This document shows positions 2,246-63,728 of a stretch of DNA of 64,000 nucleotides, in pieces (the first letter of the stretch is position 1; each line of letters opens with the position of its first letter). Source of the stretch: Costus lasius (lineage: Eukaryota; Streptophyta; Magnoliopsida; Zingiberales; Costaceae). The position numbers and the translations under genes were made by a program. A model generated the notes under the pieces. The model ran no database searches. It worked only from the letters and a program-made list of their open reading frames with translations, and had not been told where the DNA came from. The stretch is taken from positions 85,410,665 to 85,474,664 of the forward strand of contig CM050453.2 in NCBI GenBank assembly GCA_027563935.2. The letters are read 5' to 3'.

Positions 2246-2562
2246 AAAACTTGACACTATCCGCAAGTGCACGGAAATGTCGAAGTAATACAAAAGATAT
2301 CGAATCCCATAGGGAACAAGGTGAGTACTAGAAAATCTAATTCTTGGAATCTAAGCTGATCAAATCGTGGTTTTTGGAACTTGAAAACTAAAACTAAGCA
2401 AAACAATAAACAAGAAATCAAACAGTTACGGCAGGGAAAATATATGAGAGAGAAAATCAAGGCTTTGGTTTCCACCTCTCTAGCGATTTTAATTGCGCTA
2501 AGGAATAAATACCAGTTACAAGGATTTATAGATATGCATAAGGAATCTACCCTATGGTACAA

Positions 2563-2586
2563 GGTGCCCTCTTTCGAGTGTACACC
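2563..2586 (-). other. Leader hairpin of element L with GAAA cap
   Basis: Minus strand: outer stem GGTG(U)/(G)CACC, inner stem CUC/GAG and tetraloop GAAA. The homologous hairpin in A (16473-16496) has the same stems but loop GAGA. Both loops are GNRA tetraloops. Confidence 0.55.
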
Positions 2587-3148
2587 CCGGTATTTACCCA
2601 GAACGTCTCCTACTTTCGGAGTGGACCGCTCCAGACAAACCCAATGGGTTCTGTGGTAGATTATGAACCCTCGAGCGAAGAACAAGCACTTTCGCGTCGA
2701 GCCTTCGTAAGATTCACAATGAGGTTCGGTCGTTATGGTCCTACTCTCATTATGAACCGTAACAACTATGACATGATAATACTTGGCCAAAGTACAAATC
2801 AAGAAATAAGTGCATCAAGTGAAATATGCTTAAGATATGATCCAAATAGCAAAGTTAATACAAGAGTTGCAAACAAAAATCGTCAGAGGGCTTCAACCGA
2901 GCCCTGAAAATAGGTTTACGCTACAACCATTGTTGAATCGCTCAAAATACTCTTTTTAAACATAGGAAAATTACAGTAAAAGGTTTCTAAGAGGGAGGAG
3001 ACAATGAACCGAATGAAATAACCAAGGATTGCTAAGTTCCAACACTCGAATCTCCAAAAATCACCCCAAAGTTGCCCTTTCACTGTCGACTTCCGCCCTA
3101 GCCACTTTGTCACCTGATTCCTCAATGATTAAGTCACAAAATTTAGGG

Positions 3149-3158
3149 CTTTTATATT
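3149..3158 (-). promoter_or_regulatory. TATA box of element L LTR
   Basis: The minus strand reads AATATAAAAGCCC, about 120 bp downstream of the palindromic repeat array. TATAAAAG(C/G)CC also occurs at the equivalent place in LTRs A and B, marking the likely U3 promoter. Confidence 0.6.
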
Positions 3159-4598: not shown

Positions 4599-5280
4599 GA
4601 GGAGAAGACGAACGAAGTGGAAGGGAGAACTTTTATCGAGTATTGAGAGAGAAATTGATAGAACGGCGCTTAGGGTTTGGCTTCATGCTGAGAGGTGTGG
4701 AGGCCACCTCGGGCCGTGATTTTTACACTGAAGCCTCGCCTAGAGGAGAGGAGGATGCACTAGAAGTTTCAGAGCGTTTGGAGTCTGATCGGAGGAGAAA
4801 TCAACAGAACAGAGGTGACAGTGCTGTTCAAAGGCAATTACGGTGCTGCAATTTCGATTACAGCACCGTGTTTTGTAACTTCTACCCTTCTCCTTTGATT
4901 TCTAATACTTTGAAACTATGGTTGATTGTAATCTTTCCTTCATGCTAGCTTAGATCTTTTTATGGGACATGGGGTGTAATCCCCTTGGTTTGTTAATGAC
5001 TAGAGAACATCGATTTTTGTCAAGTTTAATTTTAGTGTGATAATTTTACTTATGTGATGACTTGTTTTTAATTCTCTTTAGTTTTATAAATATCAGCATG
5101 TTTTAGAGTTTTGCGAAATAGACCGAGAGGTTGATCGTTTGAAATTCGGAACCCTAGGAATTGTTGAGTTTGGAACTATCGTAAGAGATTAGGTAGTTCT
5201 TTGAATTTTGATTTTTAGTGATTTTATTGTCATGTTAAATTTCTAATACTTTGGATTGAGTTAATGTGTAGACTTGATTT

Positions 5281-5525
5281 GATCTTGCACGAGAGTGAGG
5301 ATCGAGTCGTCGGAAAACCATAAGTAAAACCTGTGTTGAGTTTCAGGATGCACAAGAGTGATCCTTGAGATTCCACTTGAGATGATTGACTTAGAATTCG
5401 GATGCACGAGAGTGATCCTTGAGTTCTTTGTTCAATGATTCACTTATCTTTAGCATTGAGAATAGATCTTGCACAAGAGTGAGGATCGGTTATCTGCATG
5501 ATTGTCTGCACGAGAGTAAGACAAT
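5281..5525 (+). other. Five tandem leader hairpins in C 5' LTR
   Basis: Hairpins lie at 5281-5303, 5345-5365, 5400-5418, 5465-5487 and 5501-5525. All carry the apical sequence GCACRAGAGTR, which can fold as CAC/GTG closing a GAGA tetraloop (AAGA in two copies). Stems differ: GATCTT/AGGATC, AGGAT/ATCCT, GGAT/ATCC, GATCTT/AGGATC and ATTGTCT/AGACAAT. They lie downstream of the presumed promoter and about 270-510 bp before the LTR end, so they should be in the RNA leader. Confidence 0.75.
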
Positions 5526-5796
5526 ACCTTTATGAAGTGAATTAGGTCTTTATCATAATAAAATTAAACTGACAAACTTTATTTCCTTCTAGTCATTAGA
5601 ATTAAGGTGGATGAAACCCTAGTCCCAGTTTCTCTCTGATTGTCTTTTTCGTGTGTTCTTCATCATTGCTTTTCATCATATTCGGTTTGCTTAGCTAGTG
5701 AGAATACAACTATTTGGTACTTAACAATAAGGTCTCTGTGGTTCGATATTTTTATTACTTCGAAGTATCCGTGCACTTGCGGACACAACAAGTTTT

Positions 5797-5814
5797 TGGC
5801 GCCGTTGCCGGGGA
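5797..5814 (+). other. Primer-binding site of element C (tRNA-Asp type)
   Basis: TGGCGCCGTTGCCGGGGA begins six bases after the LTR end and is complementary to the 3' end of tRNA-Asp(GUC). Confidence 0.9.
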
Positions 5815-6065
5815 CCTTAGTTTTGTTAATATCAAAATAGTTGTTAGTATTGCTAGACTAAGTTTTATTTATTTTAGATTTAACTTTGTTTTTTTTTATT
5901 TTTGCAGGTTTTGGATTTTCACAATTGTGACAGAACTGTGAATTCTTAAATTTGTGAATTGCTTGTATTTTATTCTTTTTAATTTTTTTAGATATTCTGA
6001 AAAAAATAATTCATTTTGATTGATTGGGTTGGATTATCTTTCTGTTCTTGATAGATTTGATAAAT

Positions 6066-7319
6066 ATGTCTTTTCATTACAATTCTAGGACATCTTATTC
6101 TTCTGTTAGATGTGATATTTGTGGACATTTTGATCATTGTTCCTCTGATTGCCCCTTTTTAAATCCCAATTTATCATGGAAAGAATCTTTTCAGTTGTAT
6201 TTTACATGGGAAAATCAAACTTCTTTTTATGATGATTACTCAAATCATGTCTCTAAACCATACTTTGAGAAAACTGAAAAATCTAACCTAGAATCTATGT
6301 TTGCTCAGTTTATGGAAGCCCAGATGAAACAAAATGAAGATATGAATGAGACACTAAGACGAATAAATTCTAGGCTAAATGACACATGTGCACAACAAGC
6401 ATGTTTAGTTGGGTTTGATTTGGAAGCTGAAAAGATTGATTAAGAAAATTCCCCCCCTGATTATGATTGTTTTGAGATTGAGCCTTATGTTAATATTCAT
6501 GAATCTCACTCTGATTTTGATGATTATAAAATTGATTCCTTTGATAGTTTAGTTGAGGAAAAGTTTGAAGAAATTGAAATTGAAAAACCTTCTTTTGATG
6601 ATAATTCTGATTTTGATGTAAATTTATATATGGTTAAATCTGATGAGCATGATGAAGGTTTGAAAATTATAGACATTAATGAACCACACTGTGATTTTGG
6701 TTATATTTTTGAAATTAATGATAAATCTCTTGTGGTCAACCCTGATTCTATTAATTCTTTTTCATATGATTCTGATTTTGACTCTTCTGATGATGAATTA
6801 TTTGTGGGGAAGCATGAGGAAATTGATTGTGAAGAGTCTCATCTTGATTTTCATAATAATTTTGATATTGATAAATTATTTGATGAAGTGCATGAGGAAC
6901 TTGATAAAAATTTGAATGTTGCAAAAATTGATGTATCTCACCATGTTGATGCTTTGCCCATATCTATTGCTCAATCTTTTGATTTAATTAAAAATTTGTG
7001 CTTTATTGAGGAATCTAATGAAAGACATAACTATTATTATGATGATCCAATGCTTGAATATTTTGATAAAAGTCCTATTGTGATTGCAAAGATAAATTTG
7101 AAGAAAGGACTGATGATTTTACTCTCTAATAAATTTAGGAAGATCATTGAATATCCTTCATGTGAAGATTTTGATTTCTACATATTTAAGAAAGCCACTT
7201 TAATTGTGATTTATATGCAATTCTGGATTTTTGGATTTGTGGCTAAGCTTTATGGACAAAGAAAATGCAGAAAATTGTTTGCAATCTATTTTGGTACTGA
7301 TTCACCTGCTTCACCATGA
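6066..7319 (+). pseudogene. Element C acidic zinc-knuckle ORF with one in-frame TAA
   Basis: One frame runs from ATG 6066 to the stop at 7317-7319, about 416 sense codons, interrupted by a single TAA at 6441-6443 (codon 126). A CCHC knuckle is present at Cys16, Cys19, His24 and Cys29. It is followed by a stretch resembling the Gag C-terminal half (ESMFAQFMEAQMKQNEDMN) and then a long Asp/Glu-rich region. The C-terminus (RKCRKLFAIYFGTDSPASP) closely resembles that of the ORF in element E (RRLYALYYGTNSPTPP). The likely role is a reduced Gag-like RNA-binding protein, inferred from the knuckle and position. Strong purifying-looking openness around one stop suggests recent loss, or readthrough. 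Confidence 0.7.
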
Positions 7320-9686: not shown

Positions 9687-11287
9687 TGATGACACCAAAA
9701 TTCATAGTATATTTTGTGTCATTTCATGTGTCTTTTTGTGTCATAATTATGCTTTTTTGCTTGTTTTAAGTCTTATTTGTCAAATATTACAGAATCTACA
9801 CTATTTCTTGTTTTTGATCATTTTCAGGTTAAAAGTGCTATATTTTGATGGATTTTGGAAGATTTGAGCACACCAATGGATTCCAGACGCCGAAATGAAC
9901 CTACCCAACAAATTTCAAGGCAAAATACACCTTCTAGCTAAAATACGGCAGTACCGTATTTTTCAGAAGATCTCTCACGGTACCGTATTTTGGAACTCAA
10001 AATTCTGATTTTTCCGCCCGATTCTTGCGCGGGCTATAACTTTTGATCCATAAGTCCAAATTGAGATCCGAAAGAAGTTACGAACTCGTTTTTAAGAGGA
10101 GAAGACGTACGAAGTGGAAGGGAGAACTTTTATCGCGTATTGAGAGAGAAATTGACAGAACGGAGCTTAGGGTTTGGCTTCACACCGAGAGGCATGGAGG
10201 CCACCTCGGGCCGTGATTTTTATACTGAAGCCTCGCCTGGAGGAGAGGAGGATGCACCAGAATTTTCAAAGCGTTTGGAGTCCGATCGGAGGAGAAATCA
10301 ACAGAACAGCGGTGACATCGCTGTTCAAAGGCAATTACGGTGTTGTAATTTCGATTACAGCACCGTGTTTTGTAACTTCTATCTTTCTCCTTTGATTTAT
10401 GATACTTTGAAACTGTGTTTGATTGTAATCTTTCCTTCATGCTATCTTAGATCTTTTTATGGGACATGGGGTGTAATCCCCTTGGTTTGTTAATGACTAG
10501 AGAATATCGATTTTTGTCAAGTTTAATTTTAGTATGATAATTTTACTTATGTGATGACTTGTTTTTAATTCTCTTTACTTTTATAAATATCAGCATGTTT
10601 TAGAGTTTTGTGAAATAGACCTAGAGGTTGATCATTTGAAATTCGGAACCCTAGGAATTGTTGAGTTTGGAACTATCGTAAGAGATTAGGTAGTTCTTCG
10701 AATTTTGATTTTTAGTGATTTTATTGCCATGTTGAATTTCTAATACTTTGGATTGAGTTAATGTGTAGACTTGATTTGATCTTGCACGAGAGTGAGGATC
10801 GAGTCGTCGGAAAACCATAAGTAAAACCTGTGTTGAGTTTCAGGATGCACGAGAGTGATCCTTGAGATTCCACTTGAGATGATTGACTTAGAATTCGGAT
10901 GCACGAGAGTGATCCTTGAGTTCTTTATTCAATGATTCACTTATCTTTAGCATTGAGAATAGATCTTGCACGAGAGTGAAGATCGGTTATCTGCATGATT
11001 GTCTGCACGAGAGTGAGACAATACCTTTATGAAGTGAATTAGGTCTTTATCATAATAGAATTAAACTGACAACCTTTATTTCCTTCTAGTCATTAGAATT
11101 AAGGTGGATGAAACTCTAGTCCCAATTTCTCTCTGATTGTCTTTTTTGTGTGTTCTCCATCATTGCTTTTCATCATATTCGGTTTGCTTAGCTAGGGAGA
11201 ATACAACTATTTGGTACTTAACAATAAGGTCTCTGTGGTTCGATATTTCTATTACTTTAAAGTATCCGTGCACTTGCGGACACAACA
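9687..11287 (+). repeat. Element C 3' LTR (1601 bp, array deleted)
   Basis: The same ends as the 5' LTR. Only one palindromic core remains (about 9950-9993): the sequence passes directly from the first array half-site to the last, a deletion of about 430 bp consistent with recombination between repeats. Leader hairpins are kept at 10778-10800, 10842-10862, 10897-10915, 10962-10984 and 10998-11022. In the fourth, the right stem is AAGATC instead of AGGATC, turning a U-G pair into U-A. Confidence 0.9.
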
Positions 11288-11377
11288 ATAAGCCTTAAAG
11301 GAGTGTAAAAATATTCTAATAGGCCCAAATTCATCATGAAATATCATTAAAAATCACTACAAAAATGTAAGGCATCA
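11288..11377 (-). repeat. Element L 5' LTR, first 90 bp beyond C
   Basis: The minus strand starts TGATGCCTTACATTTTTG at 11377 and matches the starts of LTR A and LTR B. It completes the LTR interrupted at 3757. Immediately right of it the integrase sequence of element A begins, so L is inserted into A. Confidence 0.75.
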
Positions 11378-15779: not shown

Positions 15780-15909
15780 CGTGATTTCAACCTAGGCGAA
15801 TGCGAGCCCGACTTTCACTCGGATTTTCCCTGATTTCTGACCCGTTTGAAGTCTAAATTTGGCAAGGAAGGACTCTATGGAAAGTTGATTCGAAGGAGAA
15901 CGCGTAGAG

Positions 15910-15916
15910 TATAAAA
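15910..15916 (+). promoter_or_regulatory. TATA box of LTR A
   Basis: TATAAAA in the context GAGTATAAAAGCCC, downstream of the palindromic array and conserved in LTRs B and L. Confidence 0.65.
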
Positions 15917-16351
15917 GCCCTAATTTTTGTGCCCTAAATATAGAGGAATCACGCGACGAAGCAGAGGAGGGCGGAAGTTCACGGTGACTAGGTGATTTTC
16001 GGAGATTGAGACGTCGGTTCATCATGATTTCATCAGGATACTTACGGTTGATCGTCTCCTTCCCCTCAGATTCGCTTCTTTGTAGATTGCTTTTCTTTTA
16101 AAGAGAGATTTTGAGCGTTTCAATGACGATTGTAGCGTAAACCCTATTTCGGGGCTTAGTTGAAGCTCGTTGACGAATCTTAATTGCAAATCTTGTTTTG
16201 ATTCTTTTATTTGGATTATTATGTGAGCATATTTTATTTTGATGTACATATCTCATGATTTTACCTTGGTCGAGTATTTTTCATGTTTAAGCCATTACGA
16301 TTCATACCGAGAGGAGAATCCTAAGGGTGGATCCTCTTAGTAAAATTTGCG

Positions 16352-16496
16352 AGACCTTGACACGAGAGTGTCTGGTCTTCGCTCGAGGGTTTCACAATCT
16401 TCCATAGAACTCATTGAGTTTGTCTAAAATGATCCACCGTGAGAGTAGGAGATCGTCTTAGTCGAACACCGGGGTGTACACTCGAGAGAGGGCACC
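16352..16496 (+). other. GNRA-capped leader hairpins of LTR A
   Basis: Hairpin 16352-16378: AGACC/GGTCT outer stem, T-T mismatch, GACAC/GTGTC inner stem, GAGA loop. Hairpin 16473-16496: GGTG(T)/(G)CACC outer stem, CTC/GAG inner stem, GAGA loop. A weaker one (GATC...GATC with GAGA) lies between, near 16431-16455. Confidence 0.65.
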
Positions 16497-16788
16497 TTGT
16501 ACCCTAGGGATAGATTCCTTGTGCAAAAACATAAATCCAGGTAACTGATATTCTTTATACGCGATTAAAATCGTCAGCGTGGTGGAAACCATAGCCCTGA
16601 TATCTCTCTCGTATTTATTCTCTACTGACGTAGCGTTGATTTCTGATTTTCGATCTTAGTTCTCAAAACCTTGTTTCGATTCGCCTGGCTATTAAAACTT
16701 GGACTTTCTGGTATTCAACCTTGTTCCCTGTGGGATTCGATATCTTTTATATTACTTCGACATAATCGTGCACTTTCGGGTCATGTCA

Positions 16789-20234: not shown

Positions 20235-20241
20235 TATAAAA
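20235..20241 (+). promoter_or_regulatory. TATA box of LTR B
   Basis: TATAAAA in GGAGTATAAAAGGCC, in the same position as in LTRs A and L. Confidence 0.65.
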
Positions 20242-20682
20242 GGCCTCTTTCTTGTTGTCTAATAAGCGAGCAATCGACTCACGAAGCGGCTAGGGCAAAC
20301 GGAACAGGCGACAAAGCTTTCGGAGGAGATTTTGAAGAGATTTCGCGACGGATCTTCACGATTTCTGGAGAATATCTTTGATTCCTCTTCTCCTTCCTCT
20401 CCTTTGTGTTTTCTTATAATTTTCGTGATTTATTGGAGAGATTTGTGGGAGTTTACATGGATCTTTTAGTATAAAATCTTATTCGGGACTCTGTTGAAGC
20501 TCGCTGATGTTTTCTATCGTATAATTTGAACTTGTTTTATTATTTTGAGGGTTATATGAGCATATTTTACTTAGTTGTTGCTATTTCATGATATTACTTT
20601 GGCCACGTAGTATTGTGTGTTAATCGACATGATCTTGACCGCAAGGATGATCCTGTTGGCGGATCCCCTAAGTAGAACTTGT

Positions 20683-20791
20683 GAACTTCTAACACGAGAG
20701 TAGTTAGAGTTCACTCGAGGATAACATAATCTTCCATAAAACCCATTGGATTTATCTAAAATGATTTACCATGAGAGTAGTAGATCATTTT
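20683..20791 (+). other. Leader hairpins of LTR B
   Basis: 20683-20712: GAACT(T)CTAAC with GTTAGAGTTC, a ten-pair stem with one bulge, plus AC/GT closing GAGA. 20758-20791: AAAATGAT(T)TAC with GTA(G)ATCATTTT around CATGAGAGTA. The stem sequences are unrelated to those of A, C and D. Confidence 0.7.
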
Positions 20792-21117
20792 AGGTAGGTA
20801 CCAGGTTGTACTCACTGCAAGGAGGCAACCTATACTAGTGGAAAGATTCCTTATGCAATATTATGAACTCATGTAATAGATAAGTTTTAAATCAGATAGA
20901 TTCATCAACGTGGTGGATACCGAAGTCCCGATATTTCTCTTATAGACATCTTCTGTTTAGTTGCGATTGATTTCTTGTGTTTGCTCACTGTCTTCAAAAC
21001 ATAATTTGAACTGCTTTGCTTCTGAAACTTAGATTTCTGGTAATTAACCTTGTTCCTTGTGGGATTGTCAATCTTTTATATTACTGCGATATTACCGTGC
21101 ACTTACGGTACGTGTCA

Positions 21118-41039: not shown

Positions 41040-41417
41040 ATAATTATGGTTGATATTAACTATAATATAATTAATATCAACTATAAAAAAAATCATATAT
41101 TGACTATAAAAGGTTGTCTGGCAACTATATCATTGATATCAACTATAATATGGTTGATATAACTATAAAAAACTCTACATTGATTGTAAAGGTCATCTTG
41201 CAACTATATGTATGATATCAGCTATAATATGGTTGATATCAACTATAAAAACCCTATATCGACTATAAAAGGTCATCTGACAACTATATGGTTGATATCA
41301 ACTACAATATGGTTGATGTCAGCTATAAAAAAACCTTATATCAAATGTAAAAGTTTATCTAACAACAATATAGTTGATATTAGCTATAATATAGTTGATA
41401 ACAACTATAATATAGTT
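41040..41417. repeat. 21-bp satellite, left part
   Basis: Tandem units of the form GTTGATATCAACTATAATATG with interspersed ATATCGACTATAAAAGGTC-type segments. The unit contains the palindrome TTGATATCAA. It continues at 50066 beyond element D. Confidence 0.85.
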
Positions 41418-41422
41418 GATAT

Positions 41423-42608
41423 TGTTGTGTCCGCAAGTGTACGGATACTCGAAGTAATATTTAAGATATCAAACCACAGGGACTTCGCTGTTAAGTACTA
41501 ACTAATTGAGTTTTCACTAGTTAAGCAAATCGAGGATGGTGTAAATAACAATCGAACTGTAATCGAAGTAAATCAGAATGAGAGAATCGGGACTAGGGGT
41601 TCATTCGTCTTAATATTCATGACTAAATATGATTAAAGATTCATCAATTTATCTTTGTTACGGTTAAGATATAATTCACTTGCTAAACAAACTAACTCAG
41701 TCTCATGCAGTTAATTTATAAAGAACGATCCTCACTCTCATGCAAGATCAATTCAATGCTAAATATAAGTGAATTTTGGCTAAAGAGATAAAGAATCACT
41801 CTCGTGCATTCTACCTCAATACCAAGATCTCAAATAAAACTAAGCACTCTCGCACCTTAGTTTCATAGGTTTTACTCATGGCTTTCTAACAATCTAACAT
41901 CTATCTCTAGCATGTTATCATGTCTGAAACAATAATAAATTCTAGGTCATAACACTAACAAGAAATAAGCTTCTAAAATCTATGGGTAAGAACACAACCA
42001 ATCTCTTGCGATGAGCTCTTACAATAAATTATAGGGTTCCAAGTTCTATGATATCATCTTCTCAGTCGATAGTATAAAACTCTGAAACATGTTAATGCAT
42101 GATGCTAAAAACGATTGAAGACATAAATCACTTGAGTAAAAAAACCATAGCAAAGATATATTGATGTAAGAAAAGTTATCTAGTCATTGAAATATTAAGA
42201 GAATAACACCCCCCGTGTCCCAAGAGGAGTTTAAGCTAGCATGGAGAAGAAGTTACAATATTCCATGGTTTTAGAGAGTCAAAAATCAAAGGAAGAGAAG
42301 AGTTTAGAAAATACAACACGACCGTGAAATATTTCACAGCCATATTTTGCAAGTTGAAACGATGAACAGTGCCGGCGCCTCTTCTTTCTTTGATTTCTCT
42401 TCCAATTGACCTCCTTTCGTTCTAAAACTTCTGGTACGTTGTCTCCTCCTCCAGGCGAAGCTTCAGTATGAATTTCGCTGTCTGAGATGGTCTGGATTCG
42501 TCGGGATGGCGTGACCCTAGGCGGCAGTACGAACTGTGATTTCTCTCTCTCTAGTGGATGAAAATTAGGGCTTTTTGTGTCATCCTCTTCCTCTCGTTGG
42601 TTGCCTCC
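41423..42608 (-). repeat. Element D 3' LTR, truncated
   Basis: Aligns with 48146-49342 of the 5' LTR with few differences. The match ends at GGTTGCCTCC (42599-42608), which is also the start of the conserved post-pol motif. The 5' copy has the same ten bases at 49333-49342. This points to a deletion between the two short identical sequences. Confidence 0.85.
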
Positions 42609-46800: not shown

Positions 46801-47990
46801 CCTAGAATTTATCTGCTTAAGGGTTTCTAAAATCTCATTATTTTTGCTCAGCTACTTACCCATGAATTTCTCAAACATCTCTTCTAAACTAGATTTTTGG
46901 GGTTGGCTCTGGTTTGACTATCTTTGATTATACCCTCCATTCTCATTTTGCCCACTAGTTTGATTGTTACTCTTCTAAGACAGGTTAGGATGGTTCCGCC
47001 AGCTAGGATTGTAGGTATTGGAGTAAGGGTCATTGGATCTACCTTGGTTATAACCCCCCACTGCATTCCTCAGCATAGTGCCCATTGTTCCCACAAACTT
47101 CACAAACAACAGAAGATACAACAGCGGTTTGCATTTGGAAAGAATTAAAACGGTTGCATAATGAATCTACCTTTTCTACAAGAGAACGCCAACCATCACC
47201 ATCGTTCTTACCCTGAGAAGGCCGATAAAGCACTCCTCTCTCAGAAGCCCACTGGTTGTGATTTAGCGCCATCTCCTTAATCAAGGCATAGGCAGCATCA
47301 ACAGTTTTGTTCATCAGTGCTCCCCGTGCAGTAGCATCAACAGTTAAGCGTGTGTTGTAAAGCAAACCATTATAGAAAGTTTGAATTAAAACCCAGTTTT
47401 CCACTCCATGGTGGGGGCACTTCTGTTGAAGCTCATTGAAGCGTTCCCATGCTTCACTCATTGATTCACCATCTCTCTAAGCAAAGCCTGTGATTTGGTT
47501 CCTCAACTGGATCATCTTACTAGGAGGAAAATACTTCTGCAAGAAGGCGTTAGACAACCGCTCCCAAGTAGTGAACGTCCCAGTCGGATGTGCATGAAGC
47601 CAAGCCTTTGCTCTGTCCCTGAGAGGAAAAAGGAAACAGTCTTAGTCTAAGGGCATCGTTAGATACACCATTAATCTTTATGGTGTCACAAAACTCAAGA
47701 AAAAGGGATAAGTGTTGGTTTGGATCTTCCAAAGGAGATCCTCCAAACTGATTCTGTTGAACGCTGGTTTGATCTCAAAGTTGTTTGCATCTATAGCAGG
47801 CCTAGTGATGCTGGAACGAATTCCCTGTGTATTTGGGGCTACATATTCTCTAAGCGTTCTCCTCTCTGCCATGATGGATTCTTCCTCCTCTCTTCAACAA
47901 ATCTCAACTTCCTGCACAGTCTAAGTGTTTTATTAATTTCAGGATCAAAGGGAACTAATGGCCCTGACCTAAGATTTCTGCGCATAAACA
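46801..47990 (-). pseudogene. Element D: gag
   Basis: N-terminus at about 47678-47872 (RRTLREYVAPNTQG, NNFEIKP), then LEDPNQHLSLFLEFCDTIKI with frame breaks near 47640-47690. The main block at 47048-47461 (EAWERFNELQQKCPHHGVE, FYNGLLYNTRLTVDA) ends with CCHC knuckle CEVCGNNGHYAEEC. Gag forms the particle shell and binds element RNA. It corresponds block by block to element L (1-2085). Stops occur near 47465-47475 and downstream of the knuckle. Confidence 0.85.
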
Positions 47991-48121: not shown

Positions 48122-48139
48122 TCCCCGGCAACAGCGCTA
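48122..48139 (-). other. Primer-binding site of D (mutated tRNA-Asp type)
   Basis: The minus strand reads TAGCGCTGTTGCCGGGGA, differing from the C and L site at three positions, six bases after the LTR end. Confidence 0.75.
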
Positions 48140-48414
48140 AAAACTTATTGTGTCCGCAAGTGTACGGATACTCGAAGTAATATTTAAGATATCGAACCAC
48201 AGGGACTTCGCTGTTAAGTACTGACTAATTGAATTTTCACTAGCTAAGCAAATCGAGGATGGTGTAAATAGCAATCGAACTGTAATCGAAGTAAATCAGA
48301 ATGAGAGAATCGGGACTAGGGGTTCATTCGTCTTAATATTCATGACTAAATATGATTAAAGATAAATCAATTTATCTTTGTTACGGTTAAGATATAATTC
48401 ACTTGATAAACAAA

Positions 48415-48586
48415 CTAACTCACTCTCGTGCAGTTAGTTTACAAAGAACGATCCTCACTCTCGTACAAGATCAATTCAATGCTAAATATAAGTGAATTTT
48501 GGCTAGAGAGATAAAGAATCACTCTCGTGCATTCTACCTCAATACCAAGATCTCAAGCAAAACTAAGCACTCTCGTACCTTAGTTT
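48415..48586 (-). other. Four leader hairpins of LTR D
   Basis: Minus strand. 48560-48586: AAACTAAG/CTTAGTTT around GTACGAGAGTG. 48515-48535: AGAAT/ATTCT around GCACGAGAGTG. 48450-48472: GATCTT/AGGATC around GTACGAGAGTG. 48415-48437: CTAACT/AGTTAG around GCACGAGAGTG. The apical sequence is constant, the stems are different and paired. In the 3' LTR the copy of the last hairpin has lost pairing. Confidence 0.75.
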
Positions 48587-49444
48587 CACAGGTTTTACTC
48601 AAGGCTTTCTAAGAATCTAACATCTATCTCTAGCATGTTATCATGTCTGAAACAACAATAAATTCTATGTCATAACACTAACAAGAAATAAGCTTCTAAA
48701 ATCTACGGGTAAGAATACAACCAATCTCTTGCGATGAGCTCTTACAATAAATTCTAGGGTTCCAAGTTCTATGATATCATCTTTTCAGTCCATAGCATAA
48801 AACTCTAAAACATGTTAATGCATGATGTTAAAAACTATTGAAGGCATAAATCACTTGAGTAAAATAACCATAGCAAAGATATATTGATGTAAGAAAAGTT
48901 ATCTAGTTATTGAAATATCAAGAGAATAACACCCCCCCCCCCCCCCCCGTGTCCCAAGAGGAGTTTAAGCTAGCATGGAGAAGAAGTTACAATATTCCAT
49001 GGTTTTAGAGAGTCAAAAATCAAAGGAAAATAAGAGTTTAGAAAATACAGCACGACTGTGAAATATTTCACAGCCGTATTTTGCAAGTTGAAATGATGAA
49101 CAGTGTCGGCGCCTCTTCTTTCTTTGATTTCTCTTCCAATTGACCTCCTTTCGTTCTAAAACTTATGGTACGTTGTCTTCTCCTGCAGGCAAAGCTTCAG
49201 TATGAATTTCGCTGTCTGAGATGGTTTGGATTCGTCGGGATGGCGTAACCCTAGGCGGCAATACGAACTGTGATTTCTCTCTCTCTAGTGGATGAAAATT
49301 AGGGCTTTTTGTGTCGTCCTCTTCCTCTCATTGGTTGCCTCCTCTTTGCTTCTTACAACGTTGAATTTAAGGGTCTAGATCTCTCGCAATCGTCTCCGCA
49401 AAAATCGGGCGTCGAAATTGACCTGGGAGTTGCGTTCAAAAATA

Positions 49445-59580: not shown

Positions 59581-60498
59581 TGTAGCGATCCGCAAGTACA
59601 CGAATTTATCAAAGTAATAAAAATGATTATCGTTCCCATGAGGATTACGTAGTTAAGTACTGACTTATTGACTTATTTGAATCTAGGCAGACTAAAACAG
59701 TGGTTGTTCTAAACTTCTAAGCACGAACAAACTTGAAAGTAGCGTTAAGAGGTTCAAATTCTAAAGGATCGGGATTTCATGGGTTCACCACACTGACAAT
59801 CATGAATCATTTAAAAGTAGCTAATTCTACAGAAATTATCAATCATGAAAGGAACTTTTCCTAGGGTACATATCACCTCCTCTCATTTTCGTGTGTAGAA
59901 GCCCCCGAAACCCTTCCAAAACCCTTCCTTTTATAGTCTAATCATTATAGAACCCATCTAGGAAGGTTTCTAGAGAGTTTGGTTCAATTCTGGTTCGGTT
60001 TGGAGTCAAATCAAGTGAGATATGTGAAGGGGCGGAAACTTTCACCGCCCGTGATGAGTTTATGGCTTCGGCCATAATTCTTTCTGTGTATAAAAACTCC
60101 TGCGCACAGAAATATTCACAGACCGTGAAGGATTCATGGGCTCATCCGTTAAAGTTTATGTGGACTTTTAGACTTAGCCGTTTTTCCGCCCTTCGAAGCC
60201 AAAAATTACGGCCAGCCTAATAATTACGGCCAAGGCCATGAAAGTTATGTTCTTCATTGTTTTCGCTCCAAATTTGATGTGTAAGCTCGTAATCTCCTCG
60301 GGAATCGTATTATGGCTTTAAATCTCCCAAAATCCATCATTTTTGAGCCCTTTTACCTACATTTTCATAAAAATCAAGAAAAGTGAAGATTCTATACAAA
60401 GTGAAGTAAAAACACTAAAAATTGTATAAAATCATTCAATTAAGCCCAAAATATGATCTAAAATATAGGCAAAAATATGGTATAATTGCAACGCATCA
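59581..60498 (-). repeat. Element E 3' LTR (918 bp)
   Basis: On the minus strand starts TGATGCGTTGC after GAGGACAAGCAAAATTTTAA and a GTCTAGGGTATT segment, and ends CTTGCGGATCGCTACA. CTATAAAA at 59929-59936 (minus) is a TATA box. Upstream, 60030-60250 holds spaced CGGCCAGCC / TACGGCC / TTCACCGCCCGTGA words, a loose version of the arrays in other LTRs. The leader hairpins of the other families were not found. Confidence 0.8.
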
Positions 60499-62079: not shown

Positions 62080-63443
62080 TCATGGTGGAGTTGGTGAATT
62101 TGTACCATAGTAGAGAGCATATAATCTTCTTCTTTTCCTTTGTCTCAAGAGTGTGCCCACCAATGTATATATCCAGTGAAATAGGTGGATCCGTCTCACA
62201 GTAATCAGTGCATGCATACAAAAATAAGAGTTAAAATCATGCAAAGAATAATCAATAATTTTCATATATTTATCCAAGAGTAATATCATGCATTCTTCCT
62301 TTAGATTTACATTAGCAACTGGAAGAAGATTAGAATTAAAATCAAAGAATTCATACCCTGGAGGAAAACTGAAATTAATATCAAAAAATTCATGCCTTAG
62401 ATTGTTCAAGAAACTTTCAAACTTCAAATTTGGTTTTTCTCTTACATCAATGTCAATGTGATCAAGAATCTCATGTATTATCATCTTTTGGGTATTTGTG
62501 GCTAGATTTGTATCAAATAATATTTCAGTCACGTCATCATCATTGTCCTTAAAATTACCACCTTCATCATCTGTCATGTAAATTTCTAATGAATTTTCCT
62601 GGAGAATAGGAATTGATGGTTCACAAGGTATTGGTGATGTAATATGCTCAGGATCCTCTTTCTCATCTTTTTCCTCAATTTTTTTTCTCTTTAGTGGGGT
62701 ATTCCATCCTAGCATTATCAAATTCATCCCCATCTATGTCACTAGTTCTTACTTGAGGATCCTTAAATTCATCATCTTTCTTCTCACAAGACTCCAAAAG
62801 TTCAAATTTTTCATCAAAACATGTCCCAAGTATTTGTGTTGCAAGACACTTCATTATGTGAGAGGGGACTAGATGGCTGGTAAAGTGTTGAGGAAGATAA
62901 ATCACAATCATCAAAATTTGAAGAAGGTAAATCATAATCAGGAGTCATGACTAATGATTGTTCCAACTCTACAAAATTCTCAGATTTATCATGAAGTTCT
63001 TCCTTTATATCATTTTTATCAGTGCCATAAATTATACTACAAATATCCTCACTTTGTTTGGTTATAGTAGCTATATATTTTTCAAGCATGGCTACTAAGT
63101 TGGATTCTTGATGTTCACTAAAGTCTGATTGTGGAATAAATGTTGGATCATTCTGATAAAACAAGTTTTCATGGTTCTCCCAACTTGGGTTATAGGTACT
63201 AGGGCATAAGTTAAAGCATGGAGGAATCCCTAATTGATATTCAGTAAAATCATGCCCATGAAATCCACAAATTTCGCAAATAACATATTTCAACTTATAG
63301 CATTGCATGCTTAAATGTTCATTACGTTGAGTCAAAGAATTTACCGTTACTAAAAAAGATTCTGATACATCTGTACCATATTCTCTTGTCATTGTCGGTG
63401 GCACATACGTCTGACCTGACCATTGACATTGGTTAAACATCAT
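62080..63443 (-). pseudogene. Element E Gag-like ORF, frameshifted
   Basis: Minus strand. The N-terminal piece 62814-63443 has the knuckle CEICGFHGHDFTEY, in which the fourth ligand Cys is replaced by Tyr, then NPSWENHENLFYQN and SNLVAMLEKYIATITKQSED, as in Athila Gag C-terminal halves. Acidic pieces follow in other frames (62675-62935, 62080-62733), ending RRLYALYYGTNSPTPP. The architecture (knuckle, acidic middle, basic-Tyr tail) equals the ORF of element C, and VNLKEECMILLLDKYMKIID parallels INLKKGLMILLSNKFRKIIE there. At least two frame shifts; non-functional. Confidence 0.65.
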
Positions 63444-63728
63444 ATTTCAATTTATGTAAATAAATTCACAAATATATAATGTAGAACAGGAAATATAAAA
63501 TATGTAGACAAGTGATTTTTGAGTTATCCTGTCCATACAATGTGTTAATCCAAAAAGAGAAAAATAAAATAAACTACCTATATCAAAAAAAATTGTGAAA
63601 AACAAATAAAAAAAAATAAAAACAAAAACAAATAAAAAAATAAAAACAAAACAAAAATAAAAATAAATAGAATAAAAAAAATGTCTAGTCTAGAAATCTC
63701 ACGATTAAATCGATATTGGTTGGTCTAA

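Follow-up and report, generated by a model that had tools for sequence, protein, structure and literature searches.

What are the rows of short inverted repeats that lie in the leaders of several LTR retrotransposons in this 64,000-nucleotide stretch of Costus lasius DNA (the window), and what could they be for? A preliminary description had proposed tandem RNA hairpins with a constant GNRA cap and compensating stems. We folded every 40-nt stretch of the window on both strands with the tetraloop bonus off, and retained hairpins with a central 4-nt loop, a free energy of −8 kcal/mol or lower and at least 8 pairs. The scan returned 423 hairpins, 50 of which had GNRA loops (some of these outside leaders too), and the commonest loop overall was GAGA (33). 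The outer stems quoted in the preliminary description folded as stated there. The stem of hairpin 6 of element C, whose loop lies at 5475 in one LTR and at 10972 in the other, indeed changes from AGGATC to AAGATC with pairing kept, and the contrast of a GAAA loop in element L with GAGA in element A was confirmed. The span first singled out, 5281 to 5525, covers hairpins 3 to 7 of the 5' LTR of C, but the same array begins further upstream, with hairpin 1 (loop at 5125) and hairpin 2 (loop at 5185). The arrays of the window are as follows.

5107 to 5145, plus strand: hairpin 1 of the C 5' LTR, loop GAGA at 5125-5128, apex CC/GG, without a 5' bulge
5171 to 5202, plus strand: hairpin 2 of the C 5' LTR, loop GAGA at 5185-5188, apex TAA/TTA, G bulge
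5277 to 5308, plus strand: hairpin 3 of the C 5' LTR, loop GAGA at 5291-5294, apex CAC/GTG
5340 to 5371, plus strand: hairpin 4 of the C 5' LTR, loop AAGA at 5354-5357 (GAGA in the 3' LTR copy)
5394 to 5425, plus strand: hairpin 5 of the C 5' LTR, loop GAGA at 5408-5411
5461 to 5492, plus strand: hairpin 6 of the C 5' LTR, loop AAGA at 5475-5478 (GAGA in the 3' LTR copy)
5498 to 5529, plus strand: hairpin 7 of the C 5' LTR, loop GAGA at 5512-5515
10604 to 11026, plus strand: array of the C 3' LTR, loops at 10622 (TAGA), 10682, 10788, 10851, 10905, 10972 and 11009
48410 to 48800, minus strand: array of the D 5' LTR, loop starts at 48786, 48728, 48630, 48574, 48526, 48462 and 48427
41687 to 42077, minus strand: array of the D 3' LTR, loop starts at 42063, 42005, 41907, 41851, 41803, 41739 and 41704
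16291 to 16502, plus strand: four-hairpin array of A, GAGA loops at 16309, 16364, 16441 (by homology only) and 16484
20623 to 20835, plus strand: four-hairpin array of B, loops at 20641 (GCAA), 20696 and 20773 (both GAGA) and 20817 (GCAA, by homology only)
2555 to 2766, minus strand: four-hairpin array of L, GAGA (2748) and a third-hairpin GAAA by homology, GAAA at 2690-2693 and 2572-2575 by fold

C and D thus agree in all seven hairpin positions, in order and in spacing, and A, B and L have four hairpins each. Hairpin 7 of the C 5' LTR, hairpin 3 of the D 5' LTR, hairpin 7 of the D 3' LTR, hairpin III of A, IV of B and I and III of L fell below the fold threshold and were recognised by homology. 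The AAGA loops of hairpins 4 and 6 in the 5' LTR of C, where the 3' LTR has GAGA, would fit CpG decay. Three smaller features were seen in or next to these LTRs. Most of the array appears to have been lost from the 3' LTR of element E (59885-59940, minus strand) between a CTATAAAAGG box (59936) and an apparent remnant of hairpin IV; the 5' LTR of D holds a run of 17 G (48932-48948, minus strand; 6 in its 3' LTR); and tandem TATCAACTATATTATAG-like repeats directly follow the 3' LTR of D (41200-41430, minus strand).

The preliminary description had taken the word CACGAGAGTG as the shared apex. Allowing up to one mismatch, we counted 19 matches in the window; shuffled sequence gave 1.33 (sd 1.29), and none of 100 shuffles reached 19. 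As the constant part, however, neither the word nor its CAC/GTG apex held. Leader hairpins that lack it include those at 5185 in C (TAA/TTA) and at 42002 (CAA/TTG) and 41904 (CTA/TAG) in D, which indicates that what recurs is a tetraloop of the GNRA class, in most cases GAGA or GAAA, atop a short apical stem whose pairs vary; CGC/GCG, TAT/ATA, CTC/GAG and CCC/GGG were also met as apices. The GNRA variants comprised GAGA, GAAA, GGGA, GGAA and GCAA. Exceptions in some copies were AAGA, GTGA, GATA, TAGA, GAGG and GAGC among others, TAGA being the loop of hairpin 1 in the 3' LTR of C. In the seven-hairpin type, hairpins 2 to 7 have an apical stem of 3 bp above a 1-nt 5' bulge, which is usually G.

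Judged by the Ty3-type pol of D and a tRNA-Asp-type primer site, the carriers of the array are Athila-type Ty3 LTR retrotransposons. The pol of D matched the Pfam families RT_RNaseH (2.2e-37) and Asp_protease_2 (2.4e-4, which is below Pfam's cut-off), and pol-bearing relatives align along D; among the 120 relatives listed, all those with names were plants. The interiors of C and E gave no match in tblastn with four pol-bearing relatives that do match D, the 291-aa ORF of C and both long ORFs of E had no Pfam match, and the acidic ORF of C had no homologue at E 0.001.

5797 to 5814, plus strand: primer-binding site of C, TGGCGCCGTTGCCGGGGA
5768 to 5783, plus strand: candidate U5-end hairpin of C, TCCG-TGCACTTG-CGGA, adjoining the LTR end

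We take the primer-binding site TGGCGCCGTTGCCGGGGA to be of the tRNA-Asp type. The site of D, at 48139 on the minus strand, differs from it at two positions, and a 19-base form of the C site has 5,622 exact matches in the genome. The primer site follows the last hairpin loop by 285 nt in C and by 288 nt in D. A motif similar to the candidate U5-end hairpin lies near the LTR ends of other leaders.

We then considered the position of the array relative to predicted promoters.

15905 to 15929, plus strand: predicted promoter of A, TATAAAAGCCCTAATTTTTG, TATAAA from 15910, 399 nt before the hairpin I loop
20234 to 20243, plus strand: predicted promoter of B, GTATAAAAGG, TATAAA at 20235, 406 nt before the hairpin I loop
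3136 to 3161, minus strand: predicted promoter of L, TATAAAAGCCCTAAATTTTG, TATAAA at 3156, 408 nt before the hairpin I loop

The TATA boxes of A and L sit within TATAAAAGCCCTAA, and D has a related element, ACACAAAAAGCCCTAATTTT, 512-524 nt before its first hairpin loop. The earlier placement of the array in the transcribed leader was supported by promoters predicted some 400-520 nt before it in A, B, L and D, but not by C, whose own TATA-like box at 5085 is only 40 nt before the loop of hairpin 1, so that transcription from it would start near that hairpin. An exact-pattern search of the leaders of the C and D type (group 1 below) detected no conserved TATA box. Given the promoters predicted upstream of the hairpins in A, B, L and D, the array should be part of the genomic RNA leader.

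Fetched loci and the window elements fell into three leader groups. Group 1 comprised C and D of the window plus 41 fetched loci (45 leaders), and hairpins 1 to 7 were found in 44, 38, 45, 45, 45, 43 and 44 of them, with assignment by exemplar windows that had been chosen as hairpins and with the order constrained. This choice of exemplars biases the percentage paired upward; the bias should be smaller for counts of co-substitution and of G-U against A-C. The loops of group 1 are mainly GAGA, plus GAAA and a few others, and the bulged base of hairpins 2 to 7 is G in 41/45 to 45/45 copies. Group 2 (ten loci, e.g. L039 and L049) has further GNRA hairpins in addition to the one with the motif, at about −355 to −392 (8 of 10 loci), −52 (10 of 10), +120 (9 of 10) and +250 (10 of 10), with apices that include CGC/GCG, GCC/GGC, CCC/GGG and CTC/GAG. 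Group 3 consists of 34 leaders, including A, B and L, three of which are doubtful or partial (L125, L128 and L130). Its hairpins I to IV were found in 29, 34, 31 and 32 of the 34, with 17 of the 29 rows for hairpin I centred on a neighbouring GTGA-like word rather than on the array loop. Stems in group 3 differ widely between subfamilies.

Folding of whole leaders indicated a further level of structure.

5437 to 5448, plus strand: 5' strand of a helix enclosing hairpins 6 and 7 of C, pairing with 5532-5543
5532 to 5543, plus strand: 3' strand of this helix, from whole-leader folds and covariation

Whole leaders were more stable than their shuffles (z −3.71 for C 3', −3.25 for D 5'), and a 4-base hairpin loop formed at 6 of the 7 positions in each; the exceptions, in both the minimum-free-energy and the centroid fold, were hairpin 1 of C 3' and hairpin 3 of D 5'. 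The helix around hairpins 6 and 7 was present in both folds. It covaries across 25 distinct strand pairs, and one of its base pairs is T-A in 16 and C-G in 7.

The preliminary description had read the compensating stems as selection on RNA structure and had named a lack of covariation in a larger alignment as the result that would speak against it. We examined covariation in the 45 leaders of group 1 with a script of our own rather than R-scape, using a FastTree tree, Fitch parsimony and 48 stem pairs. Both partners of a pair changed on the same branch in 43 events, against 9.6 (sd 2.9; maximum 20 of 2000) when changes were redistributed, on a tree that was built from the same leaders, midpoint-rooted and with parsimony ties resolved arbitrarily, from one contig plus the window and with exemplar-based hairpin assignment. 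Thirty-seven of the 43 ended paired. Slid registers (30-48 usable pairs) gave 10-21 double-change events, 2-11 of them paired. One-sided changes kept pairing in 45 cases and broke it in 8 on internal branches (37 and 42 on terminal branches); double changes kept it in 26 and broke it in 1 on internal branches (11 and 5 on terminal ones). This retention of pairing on internal branches and its frequent loss on terminal ones points to selection in replicating lineages, followed by decay after insertion.

The strand on which selection acted could be read from wobble pairs. Transitions from Watson-Crick pairs on internal branches led to G-U 29 times and to A-C twice (two-sided binomial about 5e-7), and on terminal branches 28 and 15 times, respectively. 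Stem cells in the distinct windows of hairpins 2 to 7 comprised 1275 Watson-Crick, 142 G-U, 19 A-C and 57 other combinations. The large excess of G-U over A-C on internal branches indicates selection on the sense-strand RNA before insertion. In addition, 112 distinct motif hairpins formed 4.11 of 6 outer pairs, against 2.61 (sd 0.12) with the right arms shuffled, and a flank duplex of −6 kcal/mol or lower was present at 128 of 149 motif matches in 54 loci, the others being matches without a stem.

Genome-wide, the motif is abundant. Counts in the 1.279-Gb genome were 12,326 for GCACGAGAGTG (reversed pattern, 111), 9,483 for CACGAGAGTAG (261) and 1,023 for ACACGAGAGTGT (128), part of the last belonging to another repeat. 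This different interspersed repeat (L073, L077, L081-L085 and L087-L090) contains ACACGAGAGTGT without a GNRA array, and has recurring hairpins of its own with GCTA, CACA and CGTA loops. When the motif hairpins themselves were set aside in the 54 motif-ascertained loci, GNRA loops accounted for 110 of 254 hairpins on the sense strand of the leader zone and 5 of 183 on the antisense strand; outside the leader zone the counts were 26 of 355 and 28 of 367.

We also sampled leaders by primer-binding site rather than by motif, taking the 1 kb upstream of 20 sites on contig 1 (5.8-21.8 Mb), which were hand-picked along the listed sites with those beside already fetched loci left out. Each of the 20 leaders contained two or more GNRA hairpins. 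In folds without a tetraloop energy bonus, GNRA loops made up 72 of 121 tetraloop hairpins on the sense strand, 0 of 68 on the antisense strand and 2.3 of 46 after dinucleotide shuffling, and the 20 leaders spread over 11 of the 16 leader clusters. Control leaders with a tRNA-iMet-type site (19 usable of 20) gave 6 of 134 on the sense and 7 of 111 on the antisense strand, and at least two GNRA hairpins were present in one of the 19. Covariation, the G-U bias and the sense-strand excess of GNRA loops strongly support selection on RNA structure. That an array of sense-strand RNA hairpins is under selection and tied to one class of primer site is, in our view, close to certain; the strong evidence comes from one genome, mostly from the first part of one contig.

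Other sequence collections were searched with the primer-site pattern. Viral contigs yielded nothing, and the RNase H region of D had no confirmed relative among them. Bacterial assemblies yielded 23 stretches, five of which, chosen by base composition, were inspected more closely: L095, L101 and L108 are likely plant contaminants, and L109 and L112 do not look like such. L095 (BMWJ01000030.1, labelled Streptomyces clavifer) is AT-rich and has a box reading CTATAAATAG near 1440, three GNRA hairpins (all GAGA; 1582, 1736 and 1841) plus a CACT-loop hairpin, and a primer site at 2934, in the order TATA box, hairpins, primer site. GNRA loops were found in 3 of 20 sense and 2 of 17 antisense hairpins at a relaxed threshold, and L095 is only suggestive as a cross-species case. 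L101 (NZ_JABGCI010000027.1, labelled Blastococcus endophyticus), also AT-rich and with the same primer site, has five tandem hairpins with a common CC-ACTT-GG apex and partly varying stems, i.e. another constant loop. No GNRA hairpin was detected in L108.

Loop type proved to be concerted within leaders. We compared one representative of each of the 16 clusters, namely the member with most GAGA or GAAA loops, and counted these two types (GGGA, GCAA and others were left out); this choice has no obvious bias towards either outcome. Of the within-leader pairs, 100 of 114 were identical, against 59.5 expected (sd 5.1; maximum 82 of 5000). Pure leaders numbered 12 of 16, against 3.9 by chance (maximum 9). 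GAAA-rich families occur in group 1 (L028, L052) and group 3 (L of the window and L135), and further ones are L137/L152, L145, L146/L151 and L153. Mixed loops were found in L135, L141, L028 and L052 (one GAGA), L143 (GGGA) and B (GCAA). Since the clusters are still related, independent loop switches must be few; we infer at least two. Such concert is the outcome that a co-evolving recogniser would cause.

A candidate recogniser is encoded by the elements.

6024 to 6443, plus strand: open stretch of C with a Gag-type zinc knuckle, CDICGHFDHCSSDC, at 6111
47063 to 47104, minus strand: CCHC zinc knuckle of the D Gag, CEVCGNNGHYAEEC

E has a degenerate zinc knuckle at 63278. The knuckles of C and E are followed by an NPSW- or NLSW-like segment, which D has in another frame. 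In both C (6024-7319, plus strand) and E (62080-63446, minus strand), a small knuckle-bearing stretch precedes an acidic ORF, and the two acidic ORFs share a similar terminal stretch, QRKxRxL(F/Y)A(I/L)Y(F/Y)GT(D/N)SP.

We propose that the array would function in cis, as an RNA element of the genomic 5' leader, with four to seven short, mostly GNRA hairpins and, in the seven-hairpin form, the last two held in a junction by the longer helix ahead of the primer-binding site. One trans-acting protein would read the loops multivalently. Concerted loops together with Gag zinc knuckles make the nucleocapsid encoded by the element the best candidate, so the reader would most likely be the element's own Gag, acting through its nucleocapsid zinc knuckle. 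Loop reading would select genomic RNA for packaging and reverse transcription, and pol-less elements such as C would keep the array and rely on Gag and Pol supplied by relatives such as D. That C matches D in all seven hairpin positions and in their order is what a shared trans-acting factor predicts. Judged from sequence features, we lean somewhat towards this multivalent packaging tag for Gag or nucleocapsid. It has to accommodate that a host RNA-binding protein or a role in translation would yield the same covariation, that some copies have no GNRA cap (with the ACTT array of L101 and the GNRA-free L108), and that the box of C at 5085 and the lack of a conserved TATA box in group 1 count against a place of the array in the transcript. 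A more tentative extension, possible rather than probable, is that the loop serves as a recognition code: each lineage would tag its genomic RNA with a series of tetraloops of one type, GAGA in some and GAAA in others, for recognition by its own nucleocapsid, so that stems drift freely, loops switch together and pol-less elements parasitise the system by keeping the code.

Among the other explanations, control of gag translation by internal entry, shunting or an inhibitory leader structure has the array's place in a predicted long leader upstream of gag in its favour, and the long leaders of plant pararetroviruses are described as using structure for translation (PMC5902531, excerpt). We nevertheless consider it unlikely, as many like small loops on freely changing stems resemble repeated binding sites rather than one entry fold, loop type is concerted within leaders, and C keeps the whole array with only a small recognisable Gag remnant. 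A host protein might instead read the loops, for example for RNA stability or for nuclear export of unspliced RNA, to which the constitutive transport element of Mason-Pfizer virus offers a comparison. The repeated small motif is alike in pol-less C and pol-bearing D, as this reading would have it; but a conserved host protein would be expected to keep the loop to a single type, whereas many families are wholly or mainly GAGA or GAAA, and the control LTR leaders of the same genome have no array. A host reader therefore seems unlikely to us.

GNRA loops dock into receptors in many RNAs, and the loops here could bind helical receptors in their own leader or in a second genomic RNA, giving a scaffold for folding or dimerisation. 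GACG tetraloops are described as acting in retroviral dimerisation and packaging (PMC516450, excerpt). However, a leader with seven loops would call for an equal number of receptors, and GAGA and GAAA are not self-complementary, so that loop-loop kissing seems unlikely; docking as a whole we consider improbable. Were the repeats to act as DNA, as palindromic transcription-factor sites or cruciforms of the kind proposed for Sirevirus repeats, inverted repeats of partly constant sequence in an LTR would be expected, but so would equal numbers of G-T and A-C; the observed 29 against 2 on internal branches and 142 against 19 in stem cells, and the wide differences of stems between subfamilies, leave a DNA role very improbable. 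Tandem duplication of one palindrome with shared descent and no selection could explain why hairpins 3 and 6, and 4 and 5, are alike, to the point that their order was confused in 24 of 45 leaders without the order constraint. It is hardly credible against the excess of paired double substitutions over the tree null and the pairing that is kept internally and often lost terminally.

We compared the proposed packaging tag with known systems. In gammaretroviruses the GACG loops lie downstream of the primer site, and the GACG hairpins are shared with non-autonomous VL30 RNAs, which are packaged by autonomous virus. By analogy, these hairpins may be the closest in working to the array, both being short leader hairpins with a constant tetraloop, and they have been implicated in retroviral packaging and dimerisation (PMC516450, excerpt). 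The array here differs in comprising four to seven mostly GNRA hairpins in an LTR-encoded leader of plant Ty3 elements, upstream of the primer site, whereas gammaretroviruses are vertebrate and have GACG. Identity with their double hairpin was accordingly rejected on loop and position; 12 GACG hairpins did occur among other loops in the leader zone. RNA phages such as MS2 use coat-protein operators, hairpins whose apical stem is very short, with a purine bulged on the 5' side and a loop of four bases, as repeated packaging signals, which are alike in layout only, since the loop class differs and the proteins are unrelated. BARE1 and BARE2 belong to the Ty1/copia lineage. In this barley system an element without its own Gag is packaged, for which conserved dimerisation and packaging signals are invoked (PMC3735527, excerpt). 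The likeness is a plant element that is unable to make Gag and yet is packaged; no repeated GNRA array appears in that excerpt of PMC3735527. The LTR palindromes of Sireviruses, also repeated palindromes of plant retrotransposons, mostly have a CGG-CCG core, lie upstream of the TATA box and are discussed as cis-acting transcriptional activators (PMC2829016, excerpt). The variable stems and constant loops of the array, downstream of a predicted promoter, led us to reject it as a motif of this kind.

A search of one library of open-access full texts, judged by titles and the starts of abstracts, brought up no description of such arrays, and among the matches listed for the motif strings none was evidently on retrotransposons by the same measure. 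To our knowledge, little is known of the cis signals by which plant Ty3 retrotransposons choose their genomic RNA. The array is a simple, countable RNA feature: every one of the 20 leaders that were sampled by primer site from this group, in a genome of 1.28 Gb, contains it, and it is conspicuous in the covariation test on the tree. It offers a direct test of the mobilisation of pol-less elements and of how element specificity evolves, and may help to find and orient such LTRs by sequence alone.

Rfam models gave no match at the gathering score over the array. The other strand of 10560-11320 had two matches far below that score. The only matches in the window were two to the snoR71 model, away from the array at 1436-1541 and 47403-47508 (both plus strand). 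The latter is antisense within the gag region of D, so this model may be picking up a piece of a retroelement instead of a gene for a snoRNA. Finally, the product of a GATA-type gene in the window was closest to a protein of Canna indica (66% identity), followed mostly by those of other Zingiberales.
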